The position numbers were made by a program, and so were the translations under genes. 40,349 nt of DNA, from positions 1 through 40,349 of the forward strand of contig CALQBK020000022.1 in the NCBI GenBank assembly GCA_943328795.2. The letters run 5' to 3'. The stretch is from Bifidobacterium breve. GTDB lineage: Bacteria; Myxococcota_A; UBA796; SXON01. The notes beneath the pieces are model-generated. The model had not been told where the DNA came from, made no database searches, and saw nothing but the letters and a program-made list of their open reading frames with translations. Below are positions 4,594 through 22,417 of the stretch, piece by piece; within the stretch, counting starts at the first letter, position 1; the number at the start of each line of letters is the position of its first letter.

Positions 4594-4613
4594 CCGAACC
4601 CGCGACCCGGCTA
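4591..4613. terminator. Hairpin between convergent genes, built on both stop codons
   Basis: TAGCCG at 4591-4596 and CGGCTA at 4608-4613 form a perfect 6-bp inverted repeat with an 11-base loop, and each arm contains the TAG stop of one of the two convergent genes. It could act as a weak bidirectional terminator, but there is no T tract, so the role is uncertain. Confidence 0.25.
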
Positions 4614-5771
4614 GCCCACGAGCCGCGGCCGTGCTGCGCGCACGGCCTCGAGATCGCGGAACAGCGCGAGCTCGGCGTCGGCGACGTCCTCGAGCATCGG
4701 CTGGAGCGCGGACCAGTCGCCCGCGTCTTCCCCGCTCTTCCCGCGCTTCCCCCGGGCGAGCCGGCTCGCGTGCAGGGCGAACACGCGCCACTTGTCGCCC
4801 GCCGCTGTCGTCGGGGCCGACATCGCCGCGAGCTCGGGCCAGCTGAGCTGGGTCCCTGCCTGCTGCAGGTACGCCGCGTAGATGAAGCGGAAGCCGGCGC
4901 CGCCGGTGCCGATCTCCTCTTGCATGCGCACGACCCCGGCCAGCCACTCGCGGGCCTTGTCGTTGCCGAGGCGCGTCGGCCACGCCGCGATCTCGCGCCC
5001 CAGGTGCCGGATCCCGCGCACGCCGAGCCAAGGCAGCACCGCCGGGAACTTCAGCATGTGGTGGCAGACCTCCTTCACGCTCTTGTCGACCGCGGCGCGG
5101 AGGTCGGCCTGGGCGACCGCGGGGTCCACCGCCTGCGCGCGGAAGCCGGTCGGGTAGTAGAGCAGGCCGCGGGGCAACAGCGCGTGGGTCCCGGAGAACC
5201 GCGCCCGGCGCAGCGCGTCGACCGGGCACTCGAACAGGCACTCCATCACCGGGTCGCTGACGATGTACACGGCGTCCGGCCCCGACCCGCGGCGCTCCAG
5301 GACGAGCAGGTTGTGCCCGTTGAAGTGCACGCGCATCGGCCGCGGGATGTAGGGCAACCAGTAGATGTTCACCTGGAGCCCGACGCGCTTGCCCTCGGCC
5401 AGCAGCGCGTCCAGGCGCGCCATGCCCTTCTCCGGGGAGCGGAACGTCTCCCGCGCGTACGTGACGCCCAGCCGGGAGCAAGCGTTCTTGAAAATGCGCC
5501 CGGGGAACGAGCGGAACGTCGTGAGCGGGTGGCCCATCACGCGCACGAAGGAGAAGTGCGAGAAGAAGAGCCCGCTGCCGATCCCGAACACCATCGGCTC
5601 GGTGATGGCGAAGCCGGCGTTCTGGAACATCGAGGCGGTCACGCCGCTCTCGCAGTGGCCCGCGTGCAGGTGCCGGAAGCCGCTCACGGCGTCGATGGAC
5701 AGCGCGGTGCCGACTTGCACGGGGCCGGAGCCGCTCGCCCCGGGGGAGAGCGCCGTGGGCTCGCTGCTCAC
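4611..5771 (-). CDS. BtrH-like acyltransferase (BtrH N-terminal/DUF4872 type)
   Basis: 386 residues from a GTG overlapping the upstream stop as GTGA. Residues 31-42 read GFRHLHAGHCES, with Cys40 as a likely nucleophile. His149/His153 (VHFNGHNLLV) and Asp173 (VSDPVME) could complete a papain-like triad, as in BtrH, which transfers an aminoacyl chain from an acyl carrier protein to ribostamycin. The C-terminal 190 residues are helical and contain a YLQQAG-type segment seen in DUF4872 proteins. It is the last gene of the operon, next to DarA/DarB-like and ACP genes and far from any aminoglycoside gene. It therefore probably moves an acyl group from the operon's ACP onto another substrate, such as the resorcinol. 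The reaction is inferred; the family assignment is fairly secure. Confidence 0.7.
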   Translation of the reverse strand: MSSEPTALSPGASGSGPVQVGTALSIDAVSGFRHLHAGHCESGVTASMFQNAGFAITEPMVFGIGSGLFFSHFSFVRVMGHPLTTFRSFPGRIFKNACSRLGVTYARETFRSPEKGMARLDALLAEGKRVGLQVNIYWLPYIPRPMRVHFNGHNLLVLERRGSGPDAVYIVSDPVMECLFECPVDALRRARFSGTHALLPRGLLYYPTGFRAQAVDPAVAQADLRAAVDKSVKEVCHHMLKFPAVLPWLGVRGIRHLGREIAAWPTRLGNDKAREWLAGVVRMQEEIGTGGAGFRFIYAAYLQQAGTQLSWPELAAMSAPTTAAGDKWRVFALHASRLARGKRGKSGEDAGDWSALQPMLEDVADAELALFRDLEAVRAARPRLVG

Positions 5772-6181
5772 GGGGTGTCCGGCGCGTCGGGGACCAGGCG
5801 CAGCTTCGCGACGGGGATGTTGAGCGCGTCGGCGTACGGCGCGAGTGCTTCGTCCGAGAGGCCAGCGAACACGGCGGGCTTGAGGTGGCGGCGCACCTGC
5901 CAGCCCCACTTGTTGGTCTCGTTCGCGAGCTGCCCCGCGTCCATCTGCACCACGGCCATGTGGTACCCGAGCGGGCTCGTGCGACCGGCGCGGGCGTCCT
6001 CCCAGGCGCGCGTGATCTGCGCGACCGTGATCGCGGTCGAGACTTGCGTCACGGTGGTCTCGACCTCCCACCCGATCGTGGGCACGCCGACGTACTGCCC
6101 GTCCGCGCCGACCGCGTAGTTCAGCTTCTCGTGGCCGGCCAGGCAAGCGCCGGGGTCCTGGGGCACGTCCTGGATCTTCAT
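5768..6181 (-). CDS. Conserved-looking small cytoplasmic protein of unknown function
   Basis: 137 residues from the ATG at 6181, one base after the DarB-like stop, with a GTGA overlap into the BtrH-like gene. It has no signal peptide or membrane segment. Visible blocks are PGACLAGHEKLNYAVG near the N-terminus, GWEVET in the middle, SPLGYHM, and a C-terminal WQVRRHLKPAVFAGLS followed by YADALNIPVAKLRLVP. I do not recognise the family. Its fixed position between DarB-like and BtrH-like genes suggests an accessory role, for example binding or positioning a carrier-bound intermediate, but nothing in the sequence proves this. Base composition matches its neighbours. Confidence 0.55.
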   Translation of the reverse strand: MKIQDVPQDPGACLAGHEKLNYAVGADGQYVGVPTIGWEVETTVTQVSTAITVAQITRAWEDARAGRTSPLGYHMAVVQMDAGQLANETNKWGWQVRRHLKPAVFAGLSDEALAPYADALNIPVAKLRLVPDAPDTP

Positions 6182-6182
6182 C

Positions 6183-7331
6183 CTAGACGGCCCGCAGGAG
6201 CGCCCAGCCGCAGGAGAAGCGGCCGCTCTCGGGGACGAGGAGCACGACGCCGTCGCCCTTTTGCAAGCGCCCGCTCGCGAGGAAGTCGTCGAGCATGATG
6301 AGGCTCGACGCGCACCCCGTGTTGCCGCGCTGAACCAAGTTCGAGCACCAGCGCTCGTACGGGATCTCAAAACCCGCCTGGACGAGCGCGTCGTGGGTCT
6401 TGTCCCGGAAGAACTCGGATGAGTAGTGCGGCAAGAACCAGGTGGCGTCGTCCGCCGTGAACCGGTGCTTCTTGCGCACCACGTCCAGGGCGCGCGCGCA
6501 GGTGTTCACGATGTGCTTGCCGAGGAGCTTCACGTCCTGGTGGATGTTGAGCACGCCGCCCCGGATGCCGGCCTCCATCGACTCGCCGTCCCGCCACCCG
6601 ACCAGGCCGCCGGACGGCGTCGGGTCTCCCCCCATGTACATGCAGACGGGCAGCTCGTTCGCGAAGGACACGAGCTCCACGAACTCGACCTTGAGCGAGA
6701 GGCCAGTCTCCCGCGGGCGGTCTTGCACGACGCACGCGCCGGCGCCGTCCGACAGCATCCACCGCAGGAATTCCTGGTTGAACCCGAGGTACGGGTCCTC
6801 CTCCTCCGCCAGCGTGCGCGCGGCCAGCTCGGCCCGGAACGCGCCGCTGCGCAGCACCATCGAGGTCCGCTCGGCGCCGGACACCACGGCGTTCCGCGCG
6901 CCCCCCGCCTTCACCGCGAGCGTCGCGTACTTCAACGCCGAGATCCCGGCCGAGCACACGCCGTGCAAGCTCGCGATCTCGCAGGGCGCCGCGCCAAGCT
7001 CCCCGTGCACCATCGACGCGTGGCCGGGCATCAGGTGCTCGGGGATGCTCGTCGCGCACGCGAGCAGGTCGATGTCGTCGAGCCCGAGCCCCCGCGCGCC
7101 CATTGCGGCGCGGATGGCCTCCGCCGCCAGCCCGGCGGTGGTGTGCGTAGGCAAGCCGGTGGCCGGGTCGATCGCGTAGTGGCGGTGCAGGATCCCGTTG
7201 TTCTTCAGGATCCGGCTCTTGAGCCGGGACGGGTCGTTTCCGACGCGCCCGAGCACCTGCTCGATCGCGTCATTGCCGATCGCCGGACCTGGCAGGACGG
7301 AGCTCGTTGCGGTGATGAAGGCGTCGGGCAT
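6183..7331 (-). CDS. DarB-like ketosynthase (KAS III type) of dialkylresorcinol synthesis
   Basis: 382 residues. The N-terminal half carries LKSRILKNNGILHRHYAID, the K-NNGI-RYY block typical of DarB-type enzymes rather than FabH. The thiolase-fold active site is complete: Cys126 in HGVCSAGIS, His in WFLPHYSSEFF and Asn in RGNTGCASS (the FabH motif is usually GNTSAAS). DarB homologues join two beta-keto/unsaturated acyl thioesters head to head to form a cyclohexanedione, the precursor of the resorcinol ring. It is followed one base later by the small unknown gene and preceded by DarA, the usual partner. The start at 7331 gives a normal N-terminal strand. Confidence in the family is high; substrate chain lengths are unknown. 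Confidence 0.8.
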   Translation of the reverse strand: MPDAFITATSSVLPGPAIGNDAIEQVLGRVGNDPSRLKSRILKNNGILHRHYAIDPATGLPTHTTAGLAAEAIRAAMGARGLGLDDIDLLACATSIPEHLMPGHASMVHGELGAAPCEIASLHGVCSAGISALKYATLAVKAGGARNAVVSGAERTSMVLRSGAFRAELAARTLAEEEDPYLGFNQEFLRWMLSDGAGACVVQDRPRETGLSLKVEFVELVSFANELPVCMYMGGDPTPSGGLVGWRDGESMEAGIRGGVLNIHQDVKLLGKHIVNTCARALDVVRKKHRFTADDATWFLPHYSSEFFRDKTHDALVQAGFEIPYERWCSNLVQRGNTGCASSLIMLDDFLASGRLQKGDGVVLLVPESGRFSCGWALLRAV

Positions 7332-7372: not shown

Positions 7373-8278
7373 TCAGGCCACGGGGAGCCGGGCGAGACGA
7401 TCGAGCCAGGGGTCCACCCAGCGACGGAACAGCACCTCGACTATCACGAAGGGCACGAAGAGCCCGATCACCGAGCTCAAGATGAAGCACAGGAGCGCGA
7501 CCGCCGAGAGGTCGCGCGCGAGGGTGCCGGGCCGCGTGACGGCGCCGATGATCGTCGCGAAGACGGGGAAGAGCCGCCCTACGACCTGCTCGCCGGCGGC
7601 GTGGGGGTAGCTGACGGTGGCGGTCACTTGGTCCGCGAGCAAGGCGGCGGGGGCCGCGCCCCGGGGCTCGGCGCCGAGGCGCTCTGCCGCGACGCGGCCG
7701 AGCTCGGCAAGGCGCGTGAACGTCTCGGACCCGAGGCCGGCGGCCGGGAGCGCCTTGATAGCGTCGCGCTTCCCGGTCAACATCCACGCGAGGGTCGTGA
7801 AATAGCTCGCGAAGACGGACCCGCTGTGGGTAGCGACGACGCGGTCGGTCACCATCCCGCCTTGCGCCTGGACCAGCTTCACGAGGCGCCGCCAGCCTGT
7901 CACCCACATGTTGCGGCACGAGATGAGCGTCAGCACGCGCTGTCCGACGAACAGCCCGCGGTCCGGTCCGGTCAGCAGCGCGGCGAACGGCTGCGACGGG
8001 GACAGGAACCACACCTGCGCGGCGAGCACTACGAGGTCCCAGTCCCCCGGCGGGAGCGCCAGCCGCTGGATCGGCGCCGGGCGCCCCAGGACGGTCTCGG
8101 GGAACTCGCCGAAGAAGGTGTTGACCTTCCACGGGAACGGGAACGGCGTGACGGGCTCGAGCGCGACGTAGTGCACCTCGTGCCCGGCGTCGGCGAACGG
8201 CTTGGCGAAGCTCTCCGCGACGGTCTTGAGCTGGCCGCTCTGCGACCACCAGATCACGAGGACGCGTCGTGGGGTCAT
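7373..8278 (-). CDS. DarA-like flavodoxin-fold protein of dialkylresorcinol synthesis
   Basis: 301 residues; its ATG overlaps the stop of the permease-LolA gene as ATGA. The N-terminus VLVIWWSQSGQLKTVAESF has the S-Q-(S/T)-GQL phosphate-binding loop of a flavodoxin/quinone-reductase fold, followed by VVLAAQVWFLSPSQPF and LISCRNMWVTGW. One or two hydrophobic helices near residues 255-285 end the protein and should anchor it in the inner membrane. DarA homologues accompany DarB in dialkylresorcinol and flexirubin clusters and are assigned to the condensing or aromatising step; I am not certain which. A flavin-dependent oxidation of the cyclohexanedione to the resorcinol would fit the fold. Confidence 0.7.
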   Translation of the reverse strand: MTPRRVLVIWWSQSGQLKTVAESFAKPFADAGHEVHYVALEPVTPFPFPWKVNTFFGEFPETVLGRPAPIQRLALPPGDWDLVVLAAQVWFLSPSQPFAALLTGPDRGLFVGQRVLTLISCRNMWVTGWRRLVKLVQAQGGMVTDRVVATHSGSVFASYFTTLAWMLTGKRDAIKALPAAGLGSETFTRLAELGRVAAERLGAEPRGAAPAALLADQVTATVSYPHAAGEQVVGRLFPVFATIIGAVTRPGTLARDLSAVALLCFILSSVIGLFVPFVIVEVLFRRWVDPWLDRLARLPVA

Positions 8279-10200
8279 GGCGAGGGCTCCAGCAGGGAGA
8301 TGGCGGTGGCGAGCAGGGTGTCGGGCGTGACGCCGAGGGGCGTCTTGGTGCAGGCGGCGGTGCCGAGCGAGAGGACGGTGGCGCCTGCGTGGCTGGCGTC
8401 CGCGACGGACACGCTGGATAGCCGGCCGCCGGCGAAGGTGTAGGTGGCCGAGCGGACGAGGTTGCCCGACGGCCCGTAGAAACGCGCGCCCGAGAGGAGC
8501 CCGGTGGCCGCGACGTCGAACTCGGCGCGGGCGAACGCGAGGCCCGAGCCGGGCGTCGCGGTGGCCGTGATGACGCCCGGCTGGCCCGGTGCAGGGGTGG
8601 TCGCGACGGTCCAGCCCGAGGCGAGCCGGGGGTCGATCACGTCCGCGATCGAGAGCTGGCCAAGCAGGCGCTGCGCTAGGCCGACGCGCATCGGCTTGCC
8701 CATCGTCTCGGTCTGGAACCAGGTCGCGCCGCCCGTCTCCAGCACCGCCTGGCGGTGGCCGACGAGCAGCGTGGTGCTGACCGCGAGCGTGTCCGCCCCC
8801 TGGGTGACCACCCGCCAGCCGATGCTCGACTGGGTGTCCTTCACCGCGACGTCGACGGTGCAGCGCTGGTCAGCTGGGGGCGGCGGGCCGAACGCGCTGG
8901 TGAGCGCTCCGGACTCGGCGGCGCGCGCCGGCGACGGCCCGGCCGCGATCGCGAGCAGCACGGCGAGGCCGACCAGGCCGCGCGAGAGCTCGCCGCGGGT
9001 CGCGCGCCACGCGGGGATGGCCGACGCGGTGACAGCGGCCACGAACGTCGCGCTGAGCACCACCACGAACCCGAGCGCGTCGAGCTGGATCCGCGCCGGG
9101 TAGCCCTGGCTGAACCCGGGCGGCGGGGGCATCGGGATCCCGCCCAGCATCGTGACCAGCTGCGAGAACAGCAGCGCGCCGACCCCGCCGAGCGCGCAGC
9201 CGAGCGCCCCGTAGAGCGCGCCCTCCGCCAAGAAGATGCTCGCGACTTGCCGCCGGGTGAGCCCGACGACCCGCAACATGGCGATCTCCGCGCGCCGCTC
9301 GGCGACGACGGCGGCGAGGGCGTGGGACAACGAGAGCACGGTCACGATCACCATCAACGCCTGGAACACGCCAAAGATGCGATCGTAGAGCGCCTTCACC
9401 GCGATGTAGTAGTCGGCGCGCTGGTACCAGGGGCGCGCGTCCAGGCCCGCGAACGCCGGCTCGGCCAGCACCCGGCGCGTCGCGGCCAGCACGGCGTCGG
9501 TGTCCGCCGTGTCGGTGAGCGCGAGCACGAGCAGGTCCGCGGTGGTGCCGTCGGCCAGCGAGAGCGCGGTGTCAAGCGGGAGCACGGCGTACGCGCGGTC
9601 CAGGTCCTGGGCGCCGGTCATCGTGGTGCCGAGCACCTGGAGGTCCATCGCGTTGGTGAGCCCCTGGTCGGTCGTCACCATCGCGGTGACGGTGCTGCCG
9701 GGCTGCACGCCGAGTCGGGCTGCGAGCGGGGCGCCGAGCAAGAGCCCGAGGGGCTTTGCGGGGTCCAACAGCGTGCCGGCGACCGAGTGGGCGAGCGGCG
9801 CGATCTTCGACTCCGCCGCGGGCTCGGTGCCCTGCCCCATGAAGATCCCGGAGCGCCCGTCGACGATGAGCATGCCGACTACGTTTCGGCGTACGGCGCT
9901 CGCCAACAGGCGGTCGTGGATCTCGGGATTGGCGGCGAGCGCGTCGCGCAGGGCGTCGAGCTTCGCGCGCTCGGTGCGGTGCTGCTCGGGGGCGGGGGCG
10001 TCGAACCACGCGGCGTCCGCGACCTGCACGTGCCCGTTGCCGCCGCGGGCGAACGCCTCGGACAGCCCCCAGTACGTGTCGTGGGTGAAGCCGTAGAAGG
10101 TGAGCCCGCCGACCACCGCGTTCGCGAGGCCGAGCGCGGTGAGCAGCGTGCGCTTCGGGCTCCGCGCGAGGCTCTTCCAGGCGAGGCGCAGCGCGTTCAT
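8275..10200 (-). CDS. FtsX/MacB-type ABC permease fused to a LolA-like periplasmic domain
   Basis: 641 residues from the ATG at 10200 (MNALRLAWKSLARSPKR, a standard FtsX-type N-terminus). Residues 1-407 are a four-helix MacB/LolC-type permease with a periplasmic domain after helix 1 and the usual end IPAWRATRGEL. With no stop or frame change, residues 408-427 form a further hydrophobic segment ending PSPARAAES, which looks like a Sec signal with an Ala-x-Ala site. About 210 residues resembling outer-membrane lipoprotein-sorting (LolA-like) proteins follow, including GGATWFQTETMGKPMRVG. Separate LolA-like and permease genes are common in aryl-polyene clusters; here they are one polypeptide. 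The likely role is lifting a lipid-like product from the inner membrane and passing it on in the periplasm. Cleavage at the internal signal is possible. Confidence 0.75.
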   Translation of the reverse strand: MNALRLAWKSLARSPKRTLLTALGLANAVVGGLTFYGFTHDTYWGLSEAFARGGNGHVQVADAAWFDAPAPEQHRTERAKLDALRDALAANPEIHDRLLASAVRRNVVGMLIVDGRSGIFMGQGTEPAAESKIAPLAHSVAGTLLDPAKPLGLLLGAPLAARLGVQPGSTVTAMVTTDQGLTNAMDLQVLGTTMTGAQDLDRAYAVLPLDTALSLADGTTADLLVLALTDTADTDAVLAATRRVLAEPAFAGLDARPWYQRADYYIAVKALYDRIFGVFQALMVIVTVLSLSHALAAVVAERRAEIAMLRVVGLTRRQVASIFLAEGALYGALGCALGGVGALLFSQLVTMLGGIPMPPPPGFSQGYPARIQLDALGFVVVLSATFVAAVTASAIPAWRATRGELSRGLVGLAVLLAIAAGPSPARAAESGALTSAFGPPPPADQRCTVDVAVKDTQSSIGWRVVTQGADTLAVSTTLLVGHRQAVLETGGATWFQTETMGKPMRVGLAQRLLGQLSIADVIDPRLASGWTVATTPAPGQPGVITATATPGSGLAFARAEFDVAATGLLSGARFYGPSGNLVRSATYTFAGGRLSSVSVADASHAGATVLSLGTAACTKTPLGVTPDTLLATAISLLEPSP

Positions 10201-10267: not shown

Positions 10268-10900
10268 TCACGCGATCCTCCCACCCGAGAGGCGCAGGAG
10301 GTGGTCTGCGCGCGCGGCGACGTTGGGGTCGTGCGTCGCGACGAGCAGCGCGGCGCCGGACGCGCGGGCCTCGGCGAACAGCACGTCGAGCACCTGCTCG
10401 CCGGTCACGCTGTCGAGCGCGGCGGTGGGCTCGTCGGCGAACACGACGGCCGGCCGGTTCACGAGCGCGCGGGCGATCGCGACGCGCTGGCGCTCGCCGC
10501 CGGACAACGTGCGCACGTCGCGGTCCGCCCGCGCCGAGAGCCCGACGCGCGCGAGCAGGTCGAGGGCCCGGGCCCGCGCGTCCGCCCGGCGCACCCCGGC
10601 GTACTCGGCCGGCAGCATGACGTTCTCGAGCGGGGTGAGCGACACCACCATCGGGTAGGTCTGGTGCACGAACCCGAGCCGCCGGAGCCGAAAGTTGCTC
10701 CGCGCGTCATCCCCCAGCCCGGAGCCGTCCGCGGCCGAGAGGCAGGTGGCGTCGAGCCAGACGGACCCGGACGACGGGGGGTCGAGCAGCGCCGCGACGT
10801 GGAGCAGCGTGGACTTGCCCGAGCCGGACGGGCCCATGATCGCGGTCGCTTCCCCCGCCGCGAACGTGGCGTCCACGTGCGCGAGCGCGGGCACCTGCAC
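10268..10900 (-). CDS. LolD/MacB-type ABC ATPase; 5' end probably frameshifted
   Basis: At least 210 residues: Walker A GPSGSGKST, a modified Q-loop FVHQTYPMV, signature [15 protein letters not shown], Walker B VVFADEPTAALD and switch His in VATHDPN. The family is lipoprotein/MacB-type ATPases, and the permease-LolA gene follows directly. The only in-frame usual start is the GTG at 10900, but the frame continues upstream to a TGA at 10958-10960 with a convincing first strand (RIFSLRAISRTW). That strand would be lost from the GTG start. An ATG at 10961 lies one frame off, so a single-base insertion between about 10940 and 10961, or a sequencing error, is the simplest explanation. The family call is secure; the start is not. 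Confidence 0.75.
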   Translation of the reverse strand: MQVPALAHVDATFAAGEATAIMGPSGSGKSTLLHVAALLDPPSSGSVWLDATCLSAADGSGLGDDARSNFRLRRLGFVHQTYPMVVSLTPLENVMLPAEYAGVRRADARARALDLLARVGLSARADRDVRTLSGGERQRVAIARALVNRPAVVFADEPTAALDSVTGEQVLDVLFAEARASGAALLVATHDPNVAARADHLLRLSGGRIA

Positions 10901-10992: not shown

Positions 10993-11850
10993 CTACCCGC
11001 TGCGGCGGATCGTCACCCGCGCGGCCGTGCCCTGCGCCGTGCGGTGGACGTGGGAGAACGCCGGGGTGCTCACCCGCTCGGTGCCGTCGAGCACCTCGAC
11101 GACCCGCAGCGCCGCGGCCGTGGACATCAGCCGGGTCTCGGCTGGCGCGACGTTCGGCCCGCGCAGCCCGGCGAGCCGCCACCCGGGCAGCACGGTCGCG
11201 TCGCTCGGCGCGCCGGCCACCAGCGTGTCGACGTCCGCGGCGCCGATCCACACCTCTTCGATAAGCGTCGACCGCCCAGGGCAACGCGCCACCTCGCCGA
11301 GCAGCAGCCAGCCGGACCCCATCGCGCACCGGCCCTCGAGCCCGACGGCGTCGAGCCGGGCGAGGTGCTCGGCCTCCCGCGCGGGGTCCAGCACGTCGAT
11401 CCCGCCGACGAGCGCGAGGTTCACGAGCCCGTCCTGCAGCGCCAGCACGGCCTCCAGCAGCGCGGCCTCGAACGAGAGCTCCTCCTGGGAGACCGTGACG
11501 TTCGCGCCGTCGAGGCTGCACGACCGCGCGACGTAGAACGCAGCGGCGTTGCCGACAGACCCCGCGAACGCCATCGGGCTGCACCACGGGCGCTCGGCGT
11601 GCAGGATCCCCTCGCCGAGCGGCACGGCGGCCTCGGTGTTGCCGAGCCCCGTGCCCATGAACACGCCGACGTTCGCGTGCTTGAGCGCGAGCGGGTCCGC
11701 CGCGGCCAGGCACGACTGTGCGCCGACCTGCGCGAGCTTCACGTAGTTCCCGATGCGCCGGAAGCCCTTGCCGAACGTCGCGAGGTGGCGGGCCTCGACG
11801 TCGTCGCTCGTCTTGGCCCACGCGAGGATCGAGACGGAGGGGCTACGCAT
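10993..11850 (-). CDS. Ketosynthase-like chain-length-factor protein lacking catalytic residues
   Basis: 285 residues, shorter than a full ketosynthase (about 400). The start at 11850 overlaps the ketosynthase stop by 8 bases. The thiolase-fold landmarks MGTGLGNTEAAVP, SPMAFAGSVGNAAAFY and ALVGGIDVL are clear. Where an active enzyme has TAC-S, this protein has VTVSQEELSFEAA, so the nucleophilic Cys is replaced by Glu (around residue 124), and neither active-site His motif is present. Such Cys-less partners form heterodimers with a ketosynthase and help set chain length, as in type II PKS and aryl-polyene systems. The coupled gene order (ketosynthase, then this) fits a heterodimer. A self-standing enzymatic role is unlikely. 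Confidence 0.7.
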   Translation of the reverse strand: MRSPSVSILAWAKTSDDVEARHLATFGKGFRRIGNYVKLAQVGAQSCLAAADPLALKHANVGVFMGTGLGNTEAAVPLGEGILHAERPWCSPMAFAGSVGNAAAFYVARSCSLDGANVTVSQEELSFEAALLEAVLALQDGLVNLALVGGIDVLDPAREAEHLARLDAVGLEGRCAMGSGWLLLGEVARCPGRSTLIEEVWIGAADVDTLVAGAPSDATVLPGWRLAGLRGPNVAPAETRLMSTAAALRVVEVLDGTERVSTPAFSHVHRTAQGTAARVTIRRSG

Positions 11851-12985
11851 CGCGCACCGCGAAGGCGACGCACGAGCCGCCGAAGCCGAAGGAGTTGAAC
11901 ACGTGCACGCCGCGGGGCGCGACCCGCACGGCCGTCGCGGGGATGACGCCGATGTCGGGGTCCGGCTCGCCAAACCCCGTCGACGCAGGCAAGAACCCCG
12001 CGTCCAGGCAGCCGAGCCAGAGCGCGGCCTCGATCGCCCCGGCCGCGCCGAGCGTGTGCCCGATCGCGCCCTTCAACGACGCGAACGGCGGGCGGCCGCC
12101 CGTGAACGCCCGGGCGATGCCTCGGCCCTCCGCCAGGTCGTTGTCCACCGTGCCGGTGCCGTGCGCCTTCACGCTCACCACCTGCTCGGGGTTGACCTTC
12201 GAGTGGGCGAGCGCCCCGCGGATGACGGCCTCGACGGTGGAGCCGTCCGTGGCCGAGCCGGTCAGGTTCGACACGTCGATGCGGTTGGCGCTGCCGAGCA
12301 GGTGGAACGCGCCCGCCGCGCCGCGGTCGATCACGAGCACGCCGCAGCCCTCGCCGAGCTGCAAGCCGGCGCGCCGCACGTCGAACGGCCGGCAGGGGTT
12401 CGGGTCGCACAACAGCAGGCTGCGAAAGCCGTAGACCGTCATGTTCGCGAGCAGGTCGAAGCCGACGACCACCGCGCGGTCGCACGTGCCGCCCCGCAGG
12501 TGGCTCGCCGCGGCGGCGACCGCGGCCGCGCTCGACGTGCAGGCCATCGAGAACGTCGCGACGGGCCCGGTCGCCCCGACTTGGAGCGCGACGGCCTCGG
12601 CGACCTCGCCGACCCCGCGCCGCCCGAACCAGGGCGACGCGGCGGGGTTGGTCAGCCGCTCGTGGTACAGCGCGATGTCCGCGTCGACGAAGAAGCCGCC
12701 GGTGGTCCCGACGAACACGCCCGTCACCCCGTCGCTCGGCCCAGCCTTGCGCACGGCCTCCTCGACCGCGAGCGTCACCATCGTGCGCGCGCGCTCGTCG
12801 AGCGGGCAGTCGAGCGGCGCCTCGCCCGCGTAGGGTCGGCCCCCGTTCACGTCGACCAGGTGGGCGGACCGCGTGGTCGGCCCGAGGCCGCGGCGCCCTT
12901 CTCGGAGCGCGCGAACGGCGTCCGCGGTGGTGAGCCCGAGGGCCGAGACCGCGCCCCAGCCGGTGATCGCGAGCGGCGCGGTCAT
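11843..12985 (-). CDS. Beta-ketoacyl-ACP synthase (KAS I/II type)
   Basis: 380 residues. The catalytic triad is complete: Cys149 in FSMACTSSAA, His275 in KAHGTGTVDND and His310 in KGAIGHTLGAAG, with the C-terminal NSFGFGGS loop. It elongates ACP-bound acyl chains by decarboxylative condensation with malonyl-ACP in the cytoplasm. Its ATG overlaps the stop of the halogenase-like gene (ATGA) and its stop overlaps the Cys-less partner gene, so a ketosynthase/chain-length-factor pair is the natural reading. The sequence is closer to stand-alone FabF or aryl-polyene ketosynthases than to modular PKS, with no extra domains. No ketoreductase lies nearby. Confidence 0.85.
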   Translation of the reverse strand: MTAPLAITGWGAVSALGLTTADAVRALREGRRGLGPTTRSAHLVDVNGGRPYAGEAPLDCPLDERARTMVTLAVEEAVRKAGPSDGVTGVFVGTTGGFFVDADIALYHERLTNPAASPWFGRRGVGEVAEAVALQVGATGPVATFSMACTSSAAAVAAAASHLRGGTCDRAVVVGFDLLANMTVYGFRSLLLCDPNPCRPFDVRRAGLQLGEGCGVLVIDRGAAGAFHLLGSANRIDVSNLTGSATDGSTVEAVIRGALAHSKVNPEQVVSVKAHGTGTVDNDLAEGRGIARAFTGGRPPFASLKGAIGHTLGAAGAIEAALWLGCLDAGFLPASTGFGEPDPDIGVIPATAVRVAPRGVHVFNSFGFGGSCVAFAVRDA

Positions 12986-14664
12986 CCGGCGTCGGGCCCC
13001 GGGGCGGGCCGCCGCTGGAGCACGGGCAGCACGGTGTCCAAGATGGTGACCGGGCGCTCGCCGAGCGCCGCCAGCACGGGGCTCTCGATGCCCGGCACGT
13101 CACGCTGCGCCTCGCCGAAGATCTCGGAAGCGAGCTGGTCCAAGCTCGCGAGGCCCGTCCCGAGGCGCGCCAGGAACTGGTCCCGGTCCAGCGGGTCCTT
13201 CAGGCCGCGGTTGAGCTCCCGCATGAAGGGCATCCCCGCCATGTTCACGAACACCGGCGCCACCTTGATCCCCGCCTTGTGCCACTCGCGGAACAGCTGC
13301 TGCACGGCCAGGTTGATGTCCCCGGCCCGGTCGAGCTCCGCCTTGCGCTCGGAGAACAGCATCATGTCCGTGAGCCGGCCGTGGAAGAAGAACGCCGCGG
13401 GCATCACCCAGTAGTACGCGAAGTCCCAGATGATCTTGAGCGTCATCACCTTCGCGTTGCCGTTCATGTGCATCTGGCCCTCGTAGAGGGTCAGGTGGCT
13501 GTCGTAGAAGTTGAAGAAGATGCGGTTGTACACGTTCGCCCGGGCCCCGATGCGCTCGCCCGCGAGGTCGCGGACCACGAGGTCGGTGATCAGCGTGTTG
13601 CTGATGCCGATGTAGTCGCTGCCCGGCGAGTAGAACGGGTCCAAGAACGCGCCGGCTTCCCCGGTGAGCGCCCAGCGGTTGTTGTCGTAGAGCTGCGTGC
13701 AGCTGTAGCTGAAGTCCTTGAGCGCCAAGAAGTCCTGGAGCTGGGCGCCGTCGGCGATCACCTGGTCCAGGTAGGCCGCGGCCTGGGGCTCGAACTTCCG
13801 GATCCAGGCCATCGACTTTTCGTACGAGGCGATGGTGCCGAACGGGTGCAGATCGGCGTCCACGACGATGCCGACGCTGTGGCTGCCGGACGCGAGGGGG
13901 ATGAACCAGAGCCAGTAGCCGGCGCCGCAGAAGTGCACGGTCGAGAGCCACCGCTGGCGCTTCCCGCCGATGCGGTTGGTCCACCCAGGGTCGTCCGAGA
14001 AGTCGTCGACCTTGAGCCGCTTGTCGTAGCGCCACCACGTCGCGTTCGCGTCGTGCCCGTTCTTCTTCTGGAGCCCGAGCTTACGCTTGAGCAGGCTCGA
14101 CCGGCCGGAGGCGTCCACCACCCACCGCGCGTCGACCCTCACGGTGTCGCCCTCGGCCGCGCCGGGGGGGCTGAACGTGACGCTGTGCGTGCCCGCGCGC
14201 TCGGCGAGCGTGACCTCGCGGACCACCGCGCCGTGCACGAAGTGCGCGCCGGCGGCGAGCGCCTCGACGCCAAGGTGGTTCTCGAACCGCCCGCGGTCGA
14301 TCTGGAAGCTCTCGGTCTCGAAGAACGTGTTCCCGCCGAGCTCGGTGCGGGTGGTGATGTCCATCGGGTCGTCGGCGTCGAAGAAGTACCGCAAGCCGAG
14401 CTTCGGGAGCTGGTCCTTGCGAAAGTGCTCGAGTTGGCCGAGCACGCGCGTGAAGTAGTGGGCGCCGATCTCGACCGACGACTCGCCGACCTTGTGGGCG
14501 GCCTCGTCCACCGGGTGCGCCTTCTTCTCGATCACGAGGATCCGCGTCTCGGGCCGTTGCTGGAGGAGCTGCAGCGCGAGCGTGAGGCCGGCGAGCCCGC
14601 CGCCGAGCACGACGACATCGTAGGCGGGGAGGAGGTCCGCGCGCGCGGTGATCGCGGGCGTCAC
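12982..14664 (-). CDS. FAD-dependent halogenase-like oxidoreductase
   Basis: 560 residues from a GTG overlapping the ACP stop (GTGA). It has the FAD-binding GGGLAG (21-26), VVDASGRSS (182-190) and GEAGAFLDP (335-343). The YWLWFIP stretch at 250-256 matches the WxWxIP motif of flavin-dependent halogenases, and Lys88 (LPKLGLRYF) sits where the catalytic lysine of tryptophan halogenases is expected after the GES/GEA motif. The tryptophan-halogenase glutamate after the DP motif is absent (FYSPGSDY instead), a pattern closer to phenol/pyrrole-type enzymes. In an aryl-polyene/resorcinol operon it could halogenate the aromatic ring; chlorinated flexirubins and brominated xanthomonadins are known. 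A plain oxidoreductase acting on an ACP-bound substrate is the alternative. Confidence 0.65.
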   Translation of the reverse strand: MTPAITARADLLPAYDVVVLGGGLAGLTLALQLLQQRPETRILVIEKKAHPVDEAAHKVGESSVEIGAHYFTRVLGQLEHFRKDQLPKLGLRYFFDADDPMDITTRTELGGNTFFETESFQIDRGRFENHLGVEALAAGAHFVHGAVVREVTLAERAGTHSVTFSPPGAAEGDTVRVDARWVVDASGRSSLLKRKLGLQKKNGHDANATWWRYDKRLKVDDFSDDPGWTNRIGGKRQRWLSTVHFCGAGYWLWFIPLASGSHSVGIVVDADLHPFGTIASYEKSMAWIRKFEPQAAAYLDQVIADGAQLQDFLALKDFSYSCTQLYDNNRWALTGEAGAFLDPFYSPGSDYIGISNTLITDLVVRDLAGERIGARANVYNRIFFNFYDSHLTLYEGQMHMNGNAKVMTLKIIWDFAYYWVMPAAFFFHGRLTDMMLFSERKAELDRAGDINLAVQQLFREWHKAGIKVAPVFVNMAGMPFMRELNRGLKDPLDRDQFLARLGTGLASLDQLASEIFGEAQRDVPGIESPVLAALGERPVTILDTVLPVLQRRPAPGPDAG

Positions 14665-14963
14665 TCGCCGATCTCCCAGCCTTTCTCCTTCGCGATGTGC
14701 GCTGCCAGCGACGAGACCGACCGGAACGCAGCCTTGGCGGCGGACAGGTCCTCGATGCGGACACCGTACTCCTTGTCGATCGCGGCGCTGATCTCGATCG
14801 CGTCGAGGCTGCCGAGGTCGAACTTGCCCCCGCCGCGGATCAGGCGCTCCTCGTCGTCGATGTCGCCAGGCTCGATGTCCTGGAGGTCGCACACGTCGAC
14901 GATGATCTGCTTGAGCCGGCTCTTGAGCTCGGCCAGGGAAGGGGCTGGGGAGGCGGGTGGCAT
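14661..14963 (-). CDS. Acyl carrier protein
   Basis: 100 residues, acidic, starting at the ATG at 14963. The phosphopantetheine site is Ser52 in FDLGSLDAIEISAAID, the DSL-like motif of ACPs (Asp replaced by Gly directly before the Ser). Helices before and after match a standard four-helix ACP. It carries the growing acyl chain for the downstream ketosynthase pair and is probably also the donor for the dehydratase and the BtrH-like acyltransferase. It overlaps the halogenase-like gene by four bases, so that enzyme may act on ACP-bound substrates. A phosphopantetheinyl transferase must be supplied from elsewhere in the genome. Confidence 0.85.
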   Translation of the reverse strand: MPPASPAPSLAELKSRLKQIIVDVCDLQDIEPGDIDDEERLIRGGGKFDLGSLDAIEISAAIDKEYGVRIEDLSAAKAAFRSVSSLAAHIAKEKGWEIGE

Positions 14964-14974
14964 GGCGGACGGGC

Positions 14975-15742
14975 TTAATGCGATCCGGCGTCCCGCGTCC
15001 CGGCGATTCTCTGCTGGACGACGCGCGCTACGAACAGGGGGTTGCCGACCAGGAACCGCTTCCAGAGCCGGCGGGGGTCCACCAACAGCCGCGCCAGCCA
15101 CTCCTGGTTGGTGTACAGGAGCTCCGGGCCCCGGCTCACCTCGCCGGACACGAAGTCGGCTGTCGCGCCGACGCACCACGTGACCGGCGCGTCGATCCGC
15201 GCCCGGTTCGCCGCGACCCAGCGCTCCTGGATGGGCGTGCCCATGCCGACGAGGACCACGTCGGGCCGCGCCGCGTTGAGCCGGGCGAGCAGGTCGTCGT
15301 GCCCGGGGCCCTGGCTCGGGTGGTACCCGTGGTCGGTGAACACGAACTGGACGCCGGGGTGCTGGGCCTCGAGCGCGCGCGCCGCGCGGTCGGTCACCCC
15401 GGGCTTCCCGGCGATCCACGCGAGCCGCCAGCCCCGGCCCGCCGCGTGCACCGCGAGGTCGTGGATCCAGTCCGCGCCGGTCATCCGCCCGGGCAACGCG
15501 CGCCCGAGGATCCGCGCGCCGAGCACGACGCCGCTGCCGTCCGCGAAGCACACGTCCGAGGCGTTCAAGAAGCCCCGCAGCGCGGGGTCGCTCGCCGCGG
15601 TGTTCAACACGTGCACGTTCACGTAGGAGACCGTCGCCTGGCCCCGGGCGTCCACGAGCCCGCTGACGCGCTCGAGCAGGGTGTCGAGCGTCAGGGCGTC
15701 GACGCCGACCCCGAGGAGCTGCACGGGCCGCTGCGCGCTCAC
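14975..15742 (-). CDS. WecG/TagA/CpsF-family glycosyltransferase (GT26)
   Basis: 255 residues from a GTG overlapping the dehydratase stop. Family motifs in order are VNVHVLNTA, DGSGVVLGARILGRALPGRMTG, VLVGMGTPIQERW, and the C-terminal RGPELLYTNQEWLARLLVDP followed by RLWKRFLVGN. These enzymes transfer N-acetylmannosamine(uronate)-type sugars to lipid carriers at the inner face of the membrane. There is no membrane helix; the basic, aromatic C-terminus should bind the membrane. Inside a lipid-pigment operon it may glycosylate the product or a lipid anchor, which would be an unusual use for this family. It could instead be an unrelated envelope-sugar gene captured in the operon. Confidence 0.8.
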   Translation of the reverse strand: MSAQRPVQLLGVGVDALTLDTLLERVSGLVDARGQATVSYVNVHVLNTAASDPALRGFLNASDVCFADGSGVVLGARILGRALPGRMTGADWIHDLAVHAAGRGWRLAWIAGKPGVTDRAARALEAQHPGVQFVFTDHGYHPSQGPGHDDLLARLNAARPDVVLVGMGTPIQERWVAANRARIDAPVTWCVGATADFVSGEVSRGPELLYTNQEWLARLLVDPRRLWKRFLVGNPLFVARVVQQRIAGTRDAGSH

Positions 15743-16143
15743 GCACCCTCCGCCGGTGGGTCGAACAGCGCGGCCGTCAGGCGCGCCCGGCACACCAGCG
15801 CGCCGCGGTGGTGGACCTCGCCGCGCGCCTCGGTGATCTTGAGCCGGCGCTCGACCACCTCGACGGTGAATGTGAGCGTACACGGCGGGGACGCCGCGGC
15901 CGGGAACTCCGCGGCGGGGACGCCGAGCAGCACGGCAGCGCCGGTCTCCCCGTGCAGGCTGCCGAGGCACGCCATCGCCTGCGCGAGCCCCTCGACGAGC
16001 TGCATCCGCGGGACGGTGGCGGGCCAGCCCGACGCGTCGAAGTCTCCCTCGGCGGTCAGCGTCCCGCCGTCGAAGGCGACGAGCCGGTCGAGCAGGAGCT
16101 GGGGTCGGCGGTGCGGGATCAGCGAGTCGGGGGACGGCAGCAC
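15739..16143 (-). CDS. ApeP-like 3-hydroxyacyl-ACP dehydratase (hotdog)
   Basis: 134 residues from a GTG start. LIPHRRPQLLLDRL places a catalytic His at 11, and LVEGLAQAMACLGSLHG supplies Glu51, as in the ApeP/ApeI-type thioester dehydratases that create the conjugated double bonds of aryl polyenes. A single hotdog domain without signal peptide fits a cytoplasmic dimer. It lies directly before the glycosyltransferase and after the hydrolase, with the ACP and ketosynthase genes just downstream. The first reduction of the cycle (ketoreductase) is missing from the window. The dehydratase call is good; membership of the aryl-polyene subgroup rests on pattern and context. Confidence 0.75.
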   Translation of the reverse strand: MLPSPDSLIPHRRPQLLLDRLVAFDGGTLTAEGDFDASGWPATVPRMQLVEGLAQAMACLGSLHGETGAAVLLGVPAAEFPAAASPPCTLTFTVEVVERRLKITEARGEVHHRGALVCRARLTAALFDPPAEGA

Positions 16144-17489: not shown

Positions 17490-18743
17490 TCAATCCGAGC
17501 GCAAGGCTTCGACAGGGTCGAGCTGGGACGCGCGCCAGGCCGGGTAGATCCCGAACGTCAGCCCGATGACCGACGAGAACAGGAGCCCGAGCCCGACGGA
17601 CCAGCCCTCCACCTGGAACGGCCACGGCGCCACCCACTTGGTGAGCGCCCAGGAGCTGATCGCCAGCAGCACGAGCGCGCCGAGCAGGCCGATCGCCGCG
17701 CCGACGAGGGTGATCATCACCGTCTCCGAGATGAACTGCTGCAGGATGTCGCCCCGCGTGGCGCCGACAGCGCGGCGCAGGCCGATCTCGCGCGTGCGCT
17801 CGACGACCGTCACCAGCATGATGTTCATGATGTTGATCCCGCCGACGATCATCGAGAACACCGTCGTCAAGTACAGCAGCGCCTGGATCGTGTTCATGAT
17901 CAGGGCCTCGGTGCCCGAGTCGTCGCTGACCCCCTCGAACCGGTAGCTCTTCACGCTGCGGTCGCGCATCAGGATCGCGTCGAGCACCCCGCGCGTCGCC
18001 AGCACGTAGTCCTTCAACAGCCCGTTGAGCTGCACCGGCGGGGCGACCTTGACGACGATGTTCGTCGGCCGCCGGGACGGGTCGAAGTTGAGCTGGTACG
18101 TCCGCTCTGGGAACAAGAGCCGCTGGTTCCAGCTCCACGGCCCGCCCGGCCCCATGTCCGCCTTCTCTGCGAGGACCCCGACGACCACGTACGGGCGCCC
18201 CTCGACCCGGACGACGTCCCCGGGCGCGGCCGTGCCGTCGAGCGCCTTCGCGCCGACCACGATCACCCGCCGGGCGTCGGCGAAGTCGCTCTCCGAGAAC
18301 GCCCGGCCCTTCGCGATGCCGAGGTTGTAGACGGCGAGCGTCTCGGCGCCGATGCCGATGGTGAACGGCGTGTAGTCCTTCTCCTTCCAGCGGGCCTTGC
18401 GGTCCTGCATCCCGTACGTCGCCGTCACGCTCGACCCCTCCGGCAGCATCGTCGAGCGCGCGATCGCCTCCTGGTCGGTGTGCCGCAAGCGCTCGGCGTC
18501 CGGGTGGTTCTGCAGCGAGTCCCAGTCGTTCTGCACCGTGATCACGTCGTCGCCGGTGGCCTCGGCGCTCGACGCTTGGAGCGTCGCTTGGCCGACCTCG
18601 AGCAAGCTCGCCATCACCACGAGGCTGCCGACGCCGACGACGATGCCCGAGACGGTGAGCATGAAGCGCACCTTCTGCGTGCGAAACAGGTCGAGCGTCG
18701 CAGAGAGCGACGTGGCGACTGAGGCGAACAGGGTGCTCACCAT
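17490..18743 (-). CDS. MacB-type ABC permease
   Basis: 417 residues. It has an N-terminal helix (MLTVSGIVVGVGSLVVMASL), a periplasmic MacB-PCD domain, then three C-terminal helices with INIMNIMLVTVVERTREIGL and the closing YPAWRASQLDPVEALR. This is the standard four-helix architecture of MacB/LolC-type mechanotransmission permeases. Its ATG shares one base with the stop of the other permease (TGATG), so the two are co-translated and probably form a heterodimer on the upstream ATPase. With the MacA-like adaptor and TolC it makes a tripartite exporter that should move product or lipid from the periplasm or inner membrane across the outer membrane. No ATPase domain is fused, unlike E. coli MacB. 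Confidence 0.85.
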   Translation of the reverse strand: MVSTLFASVATSLSATLDLFRTQKVRFMLTVSGIVVGVGSLVVMASLLEVGQATLQASSAEATGDDVITVQNDWDSLQNHPDAERLRHTDQEAIARSTMLPEGSSVTATYGMQDRKARWKEKDYTPFTIGIGAETLAVYNLGIAKGRAFSESDFADARRVIVVGAKALDGTAAPGDVVRVEGRPYVVVGVLAEKADMGPGGPWSWNQRLLFPERTYQLNFDPSRRPTNIVVKVAPPVQLNGLLKDYVLATRGVLDAILMRDRSVKSYRFEGVSDDSGTEALIMNTIQALLYLTTVFSMIVGGINIMNIMLVTVVERTREIGLRRAVGATRGDILQQFISETVMITLVGAAIGLLGALVLLAISSWALTKWVAPWPFQVEGWSVGLGLLFSSVIGLTFGIYPAWRASQLDPVEALRSD

Positions 18744-19978
18744 CAGCGCCTCAGGCACTCCACGACGTCGAGCCGGGCGGCGCGCCAGGCGGGCACGGCG
18801 CCGAACAAGAGCCCGATGCCGCTCGTGACCCCGAGCGAGAGGCCGACGCCCATGACGCTGTACATGCCTTGCCAGCTCGGCAGCGAGCTGCGGATCAGCG
18901 TGTTGGTGCCGAGCGTGACGAGGAGCCCGAGGACCACGCCCGCGATGCCCCCCGTCAGGGACAACGTCGACGCCTCGATCAGGAACTGCCAGAGGATGTC
19001 GGTGCGCGAGGCGCCGAGCGCCTTTCGGATCCCGATCTCCCGCACGCGCTCCGTCACCGAGACGAGCATGATGTTCATCACGCCGATGCCGCCGGCGAAC
19101 AGCGAGATGCTCGCGATCAACGCCACGATCATGTCCAGCACGTTGAAGAACGTGTAGAACTGCTTCAAGAACCCGGAGAAGTCCAGCGACTGGAAGTCCT
19201 CCACCCCGCGGTGGTTGTTCAACAGCGCGGCGTTGGCCATCGCGACGGTCGTGGCGTTGTACTTGGCGTCCTCGGTCAGCCCGACGAAGAACCGCGCTTG
19301 CTCGGGCCGCCCGTCCCGCTTCTCGGCCGTGAGGAGCGGCACGAACACGCTCGTCTCCCACGAGAACCCAAAGTGGATCCCCATCATCTCGCGCACCTCC
19401 AGGACCCCGGCGACGATGTAGGGCTTCTTGCCGACGAAGATCGTCTGGCCGACGGCCTCGTCGAGGCTCTTGCCGGGGAACAGGGTCGTCGCGAGCGGCG
19501 CGGTGATCACCGCGACGCGGTGCCGCTGCACCCCGTCCTCCTCGGTCAGCGGCCGCCCCTGGGCCACCTTCCAGTTCAGGATCTCGAGCACACCGACGCC
19601 GACGCCGACGATGTCCGCAGTCGAACGGTTGTCCGCGGTCGCCCACACGGCCTCGGAGCCGTAGGTCGCCTCGCTCGCGACGTCCTTCAAGTAGGGCACC
19701 TCCTTCAACGACGCGAGGTCGATGTCCGTGAACCCGCGGTCGTACACCGCGCGGTCGCGCGCCGACGCCGTCTCCCCCTCGGAAGGGATCCACAGCACCA
19801 TCTGCATCCCGCCGATCTGCTCGATCTCGGCGGAGAGCGTCTTCTGGCCGGACTGGGCGAGCGACAACATCACGACGATGGAGAACGCGCCGATGGTCAC
19901 CGAGAGCATCGTCAAGATCGTCCGGAACGCGTTGCCACGCAGGGTGCGGAGCGCGAGGAGGGCGGTCTCGAGGATCAC
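18743..19978 (-). CDS. MacB-type ABC permease (partner of the following permease)
   Basis: 411 residues. It has the same four-helix plan as its partner: N-terminal ILTMLSVTIGAFSIVVMLSL, a MacB-PCD periplasmic region, and C-terminal GIGVMNIMLVSVTERVREIG with PAWRAARLDVVECLRR. It differs enough from the neighbouring permease to be an old duplication. The gene lies 22 bases after the MacA-like adaptor stop. Two distinct permeases point to a heterodimeric exporter rather than the homodimer of E. coli MacB. The MacB-like periplasmic domain should dock with the adaptor. Confidence 0.85.
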   Translation of the reverse strand: MILETALLALRTLRGNAFRTILTMLSVTIGAFSIVVMLSLAQSGQKTLSAEIEQIGGMQMVLWIPSEGETASARDRAVYDRGFTDIDLASLKEVPYLKDVASEATYGSEAVWATADNRSTADIVGVGVGVLEILNWKVAQGRPLTEEDGVQRHRVAVITAPLATTLFPGKSLDEAVGQTIFVGKKPYIVAGVLEVREMMGIHFGFSWETSVFVPLLTAEKRDGRPEQARFFVGLTEDAKYNATTVAMANAALLNNHRGVEDFQSLDFSGFLKQFYTFFNVLDMIVALIASISLFAGGIGVMNIMLVSVTERVREIGIRKALGASRTDILWQFLIEASTLSLTGGIAGVVLGLLVTLGTNTLIRSSLPSWQGMYSVMGVGLSLGVTSGIGLLFGAVPAWRAARLDVVECLRR

Positions 19979-20000
19979 GTGCGGTTGGCCTCTGCGCGCA

Positions 20001-21122
20001 TCAGTCGATCTTCGCGCTCATGTCCTTGATGTCGGCCTGGGCGTAGAACTCGTCGCCCTCCTTGGCCCCCGTCAACACCTCGACCTCGCGGTCGCTGCGG
20101 TGCCCGATCGTGATCTCGGTCTTCTCCTTCACCTTGCCCTCTTTGCCGTCCGCCGCCGGGTGCACCAAGTACACGTAGGACTTCCCCTCCTCCTCGAACA
20201 CCATCTCCGCGGGCAGCTTCACGACCTGGGGCCAGGTGCCGATCTGGATCCGGACCTCGGCGGTCATGCCCGGCTTGATCTCGACCTTCGCCGTGGACGG
20301 GTCGACCTCCACCTTCACGGTGAAGACGTCGATGCCGCGGGTGAGGTCCGTGTGGCCGGCGGCCGCGATCTGCGTGACCTTCCCCGGCACCTCTTCGCCC
20401 GGGTACGCGTCGAGCAGGATCCGCGCGGGCTGGTCGAGGTGGACCTTCGCCACGTCGACCTGGTTCAGGTCGATCTCGAGCAGGAGCTTGTCCATCTGCG
20501 CGATGGTGAGCTGCGCCTCGCCGTTCACCGTCGCCGTGACGCCCGCGGTGACGACCTCGCCCGGCTCCACGTTGCGCACGATCACGACGCCGTCGATCGG
20601 TGCCGTGATCTTCGTGTAGTTGAGCTGGTCCTGCGCCGACTGCAGCTGCACCTTCTGCCCGTCGATGTTCACCTTCGCGAGCTCGACCTGGCGGCGCGCG
20701 ACGTCGTACTCGGCGGCGGAGATGCCACGGGTCGCGAGGGCCTGCTCCTTGCGCTGGCGGTCCACCTCCGCGTTCTCGGCCTCGAGCTGCGCCTGCTTGA
20801 GCGCCACGCGGGCGAGCGCGACGTTCCGGCCGTACTCGGTGTCCAGGATCTCGTAGAGCAAGTCGCCCTTCTTGACGACTTGGCCCTCCTGCACCTGCAC
20901 GGCGAGCACCTCGCCGGACACCTTCGACTTGATGTCGACGTCGAACCGGGGCGTGATCTTGCCGGCCTCGCTCACCTCGTCCACGAGGTCGCCCTTCGTG
21001 ACCGGGCGGACGAGGTTGTCGTCGAGCTTCTCGTCGCCGCCGCCGGTGAGCCCGGAGCACGCGAGGAGGGGGCGGGCGAACGCGAGCGCGATTGCGGCGC
21101 GCTCGAGCCGGGAGAGGGTCAT
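20001..21122 (-). CDS. MacA/HlyD-type periplasmic adaptor lipoprotein
   Basis: 373 residues; the ATG overlaps the TolC stop (ATGA). The N-terminus ends in LLACSG with the lipobox Cys at 22, so the protein is probably a lipoprotein anchored in the inner membrane rather than held by a helix. It has the biotinyl-lipoyl-like start (SEAGKITPRFDVDIKSKVSG), a coiled-coil hairpin rich in Arg/Lys/Glu around residues 105-175, then LNYTKITAPIDGVVIVRNVEPG and the beta-barrel portion. It bridges the MacB-type permeases and the TolC protein. The Arg/Glu-rich coiled coil is standard. Membership of the exporter is secure from gene order. Confidence 0.85.
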   Translation of the reverse strand: MTLSRLERAAIALAFARPLLACSGLTGGGDEKLDDNLVRPVTKGDLVDEVSEAGKITPRFDVDIKSKVSGEVLAVQVQEGQVVKKGDLLYEILDTEYGRNVALARVALKQAQLEAENAEVDRQRKEQALATRGISAAEYDVARRQVELAKVNIDGQKVQLQSAQDQLNYTKITAPIDGVVIVRNVEPGEVVTAGVTATVNGEAQLTIAQMDKLLLEIDLNQVDVAKVHLDQPARILLDAYPGEEVPGKVTQIAAAGHTDLTRGIDVFTVKVEVDPSTAKVEIKPGMTAEVRIQIGTWPQVVKLPAEMVFEEEGKSYVYLVHPAADGKEGKVKEKTEITIGHRSDREVEVLTGAKEGDEFYAQADIKDMSAKID

Positions 21123-22417
21123 GGGGTCCCCGAGGGTGTGAGGGCTTCGCCGGAGAGCCAGCGCAGGTCGTACTCTGCGGTCGCGAGCTGCACGCGCAGG
21201 CTCGCGCCCTGGGTGCGCGCTTGACGGAAGCTCGCCTGGGCGTTGAAGAGGTCCAAGATCGTGGCAGAGCCTTGGCCGTAGAGCCCCTGCACGATCTGCA
21301 GGTTGTCCCGTGCTAGCGCCACTTGTGCGTCGACGAGCGGCGCGCGCTCCCGCAGCTGCCGCACGTTCGACGCCGCGCGTCGGAGCTCGGCGGCGAGGCT
21401 GTCGCGCGTGCTCTCGGTGCTCGCGTCCACCTGCTGGGCTTGCAGCTTGGCGACGGCGACGGCGTCCCGCGTCTGGAACAGGTCGAAGATGTCCCACGAC
21501 AACGAGAGGCCGACGCTCGCGTCGAGCGAGGGCCCGAGGTCGTCGGGGTCGAACGTCGTGGAGCCGGTCACCCCCGACGCGCTCCCGGAGCCGCCGGCGG
21601 TGGCCGTGACCGACAGGGTCGGCAGCGCCCCCGCGCGCGCGCTGGTCACGGCGTCGGCGGCTTGTCGCGCCTCCTGCGCCTTCCGGGCGAGCTCGGGGCG
21701 GTCGGGCACGGTGTCGGGGATGGAGACCGCGGCGTCGCTCGGGGCCGGCGGCGGGTCGGCCAAGACCAGCGCGTCGTCGCCGTAGTGCAACAGGCGGAGC
21801 AGCTCCTGCTGCGCGTCGTAGAGCGCGGCCTTCTCCTCGACGAGCGTCTCCTGCTGGGCGTACAGGTCGACCTTCGAGCGGTTGACGTCGATGCCGGCAG
21901 CGAGCCCGGCGTCCGCCTTCGCGACGATGATGTCGAGCGCCTGCTGGGTGAGGTCGAGCCCCTCCTGCGCGGCCTCGATCTGCAGCTCGTAGCCCTTGAT
22001 GTTCCAGTACGCGGTGTACGCCGAGCGCTGCAGTGAGCGCGCAGTGATCAGCCGGTCCAGCGACGCCATCTCGGCCCCGGCGTCGGCGGCGTCGACCGAG
22101 GCTCGGACGGCGCCGCCCGCGTAGAGCGGCACGGCGAGGTTCGCGTGCGTGTCCCAGCTCGCGTCGGTCCCCGCGTAGGCGTCTTGCTTCCAGGGCTTCG
22201 CGACCCCGGCGTCCCCGCCGCCTGTCGCGACCACCGTCGCGCTGAAACGGTCGAGCCGGGCGCGGCGCGCTTCAATCGCGGCGATGTCGCGCGCGAGGTC
22301 CGCGCTCTGCAGGTCGGGGTTGCGCTCGACGACGAGGCGCAGCGTGTCCGCTAGCGTGAGGGTGCGCGTCTCGCCCGCGAACGCGGTCCCGGCGAGCAGG
22401 AAGAGCAAGGCGATCAC
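21119..22417 (-). CDS. TolC-family outer-membrane efflux protein
   Basis: 432 residues from a GTG overlapping the ATPase stop. [20 protein letters not shown] is a Sec signal peptide, and [22 protein letters not shown] is the standard TolC opening. Two long helical repeats follow, each containing the Asn/Ala-rich coiled-coil pattern ([12 protein letters not shown] in the first, [19 protein letters not shown] in the second). The protein should form a trimeric outer-membrane channel. It is coupled to the adaptor and ATPase, giving a complete MacAB-TolC-like set at the 5' end of the operon. The identification as TolC family is firm; the exported substrate is inferred from the rest of the operon. 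Confidence 0.85.

Follow-up and report, generated by a model that had tools for sequence, protein, structure and literature searches.

A DarH-family, BtrH-type protein beside resorcinol genes is a candidate carrier-protein-dependent acyltransferase for polyene chains

Azoarcus BH72 makes arcuflavin, a polyene–resorcinol hybrid with a predicted ester bond. In its dar cluster, described in 2014, a gene for a 'BtrH-like peptidase' (darE, azo0290) adjoins darD, darB and darA, and genes for an ABC transporter, an acyl carrier protein (ACP) and a ketosynthase (KS) belong to the same cluster (PMC3949708). In C. pinensis, the ester step has been assigned on paper to FlxW (PMC3992019). BtrH itself, the butirosin protein whose BtrH_N domain names the Pfam family, acts on an aminoglycoside (PMC10318531). 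CcbD works by a ping-pong mechanism, in which an acyl group passes from a carrier protein to a catalytic cysteine and then to the acceptor (PMC12945683), and for CtaG a transfer of hydroxybenzoate between carrier-bound substrates has been proposed (PMC6772006). For DarH, literature searches for DarH and DarB returned no functional study.

The window analysed here, a stretch of 40,349 nucleotides, carries a dar-type operon (ACP, FAD enzyme, KS, KS-like protein, ABC ATPase, permease, DarA, DarB, DarG, DarH) that is closed by a BtrH-type gene. This gene starts with GTG at 5771, its stop codon ends at 4611, and its product has 386 aa. An earlier reading of the sequence alone had its coordinates right; the gene runs on the minus strand, and the plus-strand frame over 4611-5771 is a spurious high-GC open reading frame. 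The product matches Pfam BtrH_N (PF14399; 141 bits against a gathering score of 29.7, residues 39-173) and DUF4872 (PF16169; 138 bits, residues 185-374), and it passes the curated cut-off of 300 bits for the NCBIfam equivalog NF053550, 'BtrH-related acyltransferase DarH', with 364.2 bits. Together with an intact triad, these matches agree with the proposed BtrH-type acyltransferase, and the product of 4611..5771 is, as predicted from its sequence, a cysteine-dependent enzyme that belongs to the known DarH family. The step that it is proposed to supply is not an unnamed one, as NCBIfam already includes DarH and the 2014 Azoarcus table already lists a BtrH-like gene in the BH72 dar cluster, so that the gene itself is no new discovery. 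The 'darH' of that table is a different gene, encoding a PilT-domain protein. The genes of the operon and those just upstream are:

4611..5771, minus strand: DarH, BtrH_N + DUF4872 acyltransferase (predicted), Cys40-His153-Asp173 (Pfam; NF053550, 364 bits; triad alignment; AlphaFold; Foldseek)
5768..6181, minus strand: DarG family, 137 aa, 4-base overlap with the darH start (NF053536, 137 bits, cut-off 70)
6183..7331, minus strand: DarB, StlD/DarB-family ketosynthase III (NF005293, 472 bits, cut-off 450)
7373..8278, minus strand: DarA-like partner of DarB (34% identity to the protein adjoining DarB in genome G054)
8275..10200, minus strand: ABC transporter permease (FtsX/LolCE type), extended by ~210 aa at its C-terminus
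10268..10900, minus strand: ABC transporter ATPase, LolD-like
10993..11850, minus strand: ketosynthase-like protein, possibly a chain-length-factor-like partner
11843..12985, minus strand: ketosynthase (best NCBIfam match PRK09185, below cut-off)
12982..14664, minus strand: FAD-dependent enzyme, halogenase/geranylgeranyl-reductase-like
14661..14963, minus strand: acyl carrier protein, the proposed acyl donor (PP-binding, 23.6 bits)
14975..15742, minus strand: WecG/TagA glycosyltransferase
15739..16143, minus strand: FabZ-like dehydratase (genome G004 has a homologue; FabZ match of 40 bits, under the cut-off)

Both proteins that mark a dialkylresorcinol (DAR) operon are encoded here, DarB by its family match and DarA by homology to the DarB neighbour of G054 only, as the DarA-like protein matched no Pfam or NCBIfam model. 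Against the stricter DarB model NF053539, the DarB of the window scores 408 bits, below the cut-off of 550. The adjacency of DarH to DarA/DarB-like genes thus stood as the sequence-only reading had described it, and no aminoglycoside genes were seen; the ACP gene lies in the same co-directional run but ~9 kb upstream rather than adjoining. A carrier protein is thus encoded nearby, as would be expected for a condensing enzyme of the CtaG/CcbD type. The WecG/TagA glycosyltransferase is probably accessory, because it was not found in the G004 operon. The ~210-aa extension of the permease has no Pfam or NCBIfam match, and the permease of the same module in genome G031 has a similar length (646 aa). 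Further along the window (17490-23157, minus strand) lie genes that, on sequence, resemble a tripartite efflux system: two MacB-type permeases, an adaptor, a TolC-like protein and an ABC ATPase.

This arrangement is like that of Azoarcus BH72 in that the BtrH-like gene stands beside a conserved hypothetical gene, DarB and DarA, with ABC transporter, ACP and KS genes in the cluster. It differs in that Azoarcus belongs to another phylum and the operon of the window has an FAD enzyme and a KS-like partner; Azoarcus darE is equated with DarH here by domain name and gene order. BtrH shares with DarH the BtrH_N domain, but differs in acting on an aminoglycoside.

Among aligned relatives, the residues of the proposed triad are largely kept (Cys40 in 30/33, His153 in 32/33 and Asp173 in 31/34), and no DarG-linked relative whose N-terminus is intact has lost any of the three. 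The triad of the sequence-only reading thereby gains support, and loss of the cysteine in homologues from this type of operon, which would have spoken against it, was not seen. The AlphaFold model of DarH (pLDDT 87, pTM 0.87) was compared with the PDB by Foldseek, and the best matches, each at probability 1.0, were AziU3 (7wuw, E 3e-9), CtaG C11A/H128A/D144N variants (9qv series, E ~1e-6) and CcbD with its carrier protein (9dkr). TM scores of ~0.46-0.59 by query length indicate the same fold as CtaG and CcbD, at only 8-16% identity in the structural alignments. In a profile alignment, His153 and Asp173 fell on a His and an Asp of CtaG at chain positions 134 and 150, with the cysteine outside the alignment. 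As these positions have the same 16-residue spacing as H128 and D144, we took them to be those residues with a six-residue numbering offset, so that DarH His153 and Asp173 probably match residues mutated in the CtaG crystals. CtaG, from closthioamide biosynthesis, and the lincosamide condensing enzymes CcbD/LmbD resemble DarH in fold; their Cys-His-Asp/Glu triad has a probable counterpart in DarH, which, like them, would take an acyl group from a carrier protein, and by analogy a natural inference is that Cys40 forms an acyl-enzyme from acyl-ACP. They differ in acylating an amine to give an amide bond, whereas DarH is proposed to acylate a hydroxyl. AziU3, the top PDB match to DarH by sequence as well as fold, forms aziridines with its partner AziU2 and carries out no acyl transfer. 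As AziU3 warns, the BtrH fold alone does not fix the reaction.

Because a single-protein scan of genome contigs gave one locus only, G004's own operon, we surveyed DarH by genome search within one phylum (379 genomes, several of them incomplete assemblies; the window's genome, G000, is 86% complete). Absences are approximate, as assemblies are incomplete and, in genome G001, a portion of the window's operon runs out close to the end of a contig. DarH scored over its cut-off in 8 of the 379 genomes, namely G000, G004, G031 and five of family f17. DarG lies directly upstream in all 13 DarH-like loci with at least 200 bits and intact upstream DNA, and DarA/DarB adjoin DarG–DarH only in G000 and G004. 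Six of the eight genomes with DarH over the cut-off are without both DarA and DarB: G031 and the f17 genomes with DarG–DarH have no DarB-level match and no detectable DarA, and DarA homologues were confined to G000, G004 and G054 in a search of 15 genomes. In the tree, the DarG-linked proteins group together (100/99), and the window's DarH pairs with that of G004 and then with that of G031 (100/100). DarG–DarH with an ABC transporter and an ACP is thus a module separable from DarA/DarB. Specificity of DarH for resorcinol operons was rejected on the strength of the G031 and f17 loci.

The f17 genomes do have a ketosynthase III, remote from DarB (81–112 bits against the DarB model). We did not accept it as a DarB substitute, because its gene maps to another locus, where ACP, KS, malonyltransferase-like and enoyl-hydratase-like genes occur and DarA is missing. 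This locus (L156:6856-15490 and L157) is conserved in f17 genomes with DarH or a DarH-like protein, and the enzyme could make another acceptor. Elsewhere in f17 (L070:9533-17838 and L071), DarG–DarH is followed by an ABC-2 transporter, an ACP and two ketosynthase-type genes, with a B12/radical-SAM protein and an O-methyltransferase also in the module and DarA/DarB absent. A divergent module of ACP, DarG-like, DarH-like and methyltransferase/ABC-permease genes occurs at L079:9185-14199, L080, L082 and L083, its DarG-like protein giving a weak HTH_26 match. In a plasmid collection, tblastn found only distant BtrH-domain proteins (<30% identity), including some of ~28% identity on 45 Acinetobacter plasmids (hits H10-H20).

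On another contig, the window's own genome carries a polyene-type cluster (G000:C1:12392-23300), recognised by gene content, not by product. It contains an ACP, a GT2–acyltransferase fusion, an LPLAT–methyltransferase fusion, a ketosynthase, a ketosynthase-like partner and a fusion of an MMPL-like exporter with a C45 acyltransferase and TPRs, and it resembles the gene set reported as conserved in polyene clusters (PMC3949708). In the exporter fusion (L121:3661-7713, on contig C1), a single chain of 1350 aa combines an MMPL/HpnN-like exporter with a C45 autoproteolytic acyltransferase domain and TPRs. Of 58 related genomes, 18 have a high-scoring GT2–acyltransferase fusion, and the three DarH genomes in this set are all among the 18. 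PF13723, a ketosynthase-like domain that is a marker and not proof of a polyene, occurs in 119/379 genomes and in all eight with DarH over the cut-off (hypergeometric p 8e-5, a nominal value uncorrected for relatedness; these genomes, drawn from few families, are not independent). Within f17, the polyene ketosynthase-like partner is present in seven genomes with DarH or a DarH-like protein, among them G151, whose DarH-like protein is divergent and falls outside the DarH clade, and G207, whose DarH is cut by a contig end; it is found in 0/3 genomes without. Genome G054 has DarA–DarB and lacks DarH and both polyene markers, being the only sampled DarA–DarB genome without PF13723. Two further genomes, G002 and G003, have homologues of the polyene cluster and no DarH. 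The polyene link of the sequence-only reading is therefore upheld by the cluster in the genome and the co-occurrence with polyene markers. As related genomes without resorcinol genes still carry DarH, its link appears to be with the polyene half of the pathway; most simply, DarH would act on the polyene donor, with the resorcinol as acceptor where one is made. Of the sequence-only reading, acyl transfer is thus supported, and the connection to the resorcinol in part.

Together, the domains, conserved triad, fold match, operon and co-occurrence suggest, with a probability of roughly 60%, that DarH is a carrier-protein-dependent acyltransferase that moves a polyene from ACP to a dialkylresorcinol here and to another acceptor elsewhere. 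The ACP-held polyene acyl chain would be loaded onto Cys40, and His153 and Asp173 would activate an acceptor hydroxyl, which would receive the acyl group. Here, the dialkylresorcinol from DarA and DarB would most likely serve as acceptor, giving an ester like those of flexirubin or arcuflavin, which the operon's LolCDE-like ABC transporter may carry outward. The resorcinol cannot be the universal acceptor, because DarH occurs without DarA/DarB, and in such relatives the acceptor would have to differ. The ester reading is weakened by CtaG and CcbD, which acylate amines, whereas an ester needs O-acylation.

The same separability from DarA/DarB would also be expected if DarH used the ACP/KS pair of the operon itself as its acyl source (a short or unusual chain, for example) and a lipid or sugar as acceptor, the resorcinol being exported free or esterified by another enzyme. 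The DarG–DarH–ABC–ACP–KS modules of G031 and f17 fit this, and so does the proposal of FlxW for the ester bond in C. pinensis, which counts against DarH as the ester-forming enzyme. However, DarA-DarB-DarG-DarH are contiguous here and in G004, the Azoarcus table puts the BtrH-like gene beside darD, darB and darA, and extracts of Azoarcus showed no detectable free DAR (PMC3949708); we consider this explanation unlikely. Less probable again is that another acyltransferase of the polyene cluster makes the ester, with DarH an accessory, for example in chain release or proofreading. Candidate domains for this are present in the genome's own cluster (the C45 domain on the MMPL exporter, the LPLAT-methyltransferase fusion and the GT2-LpxL-like fusion), but G002 and G003 have cluster homologues without DarH, and the acyltransferases there are therefore not tied to resorcinol. 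That AziU3, a maker of aziridines, is the top match in the PDB by structure and sequence counts against acyl transfer as the best explanation, and DarH might keep the BtrH fold yet catalyse another reaction, such as cyclisation or thioester hydrolysis. This we regard as very improbable, since the DarG-linked clade keeps the whole Cys-His-Asp triad and the remaining good fold matches are carrier-protein-dependent condensing enzymes.

Overall, on present evidence DarH is a stronger candidate than FlxW for the enzyme that links polyene acid and dialkylresorcinol in pigments of the flexirubin type. More tentatively, DarG–DarH may be a general module that moves polyene acyl chains from ACP to lineage-specific acceptors, in which case G031 and the f17 genomes would make undescribed polyene esters. 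DarG–DarH modules free of DarA/DarB offer a direct route to ask whether the polyene donor, and not the resorcinol acceptor, defines the enzyme.
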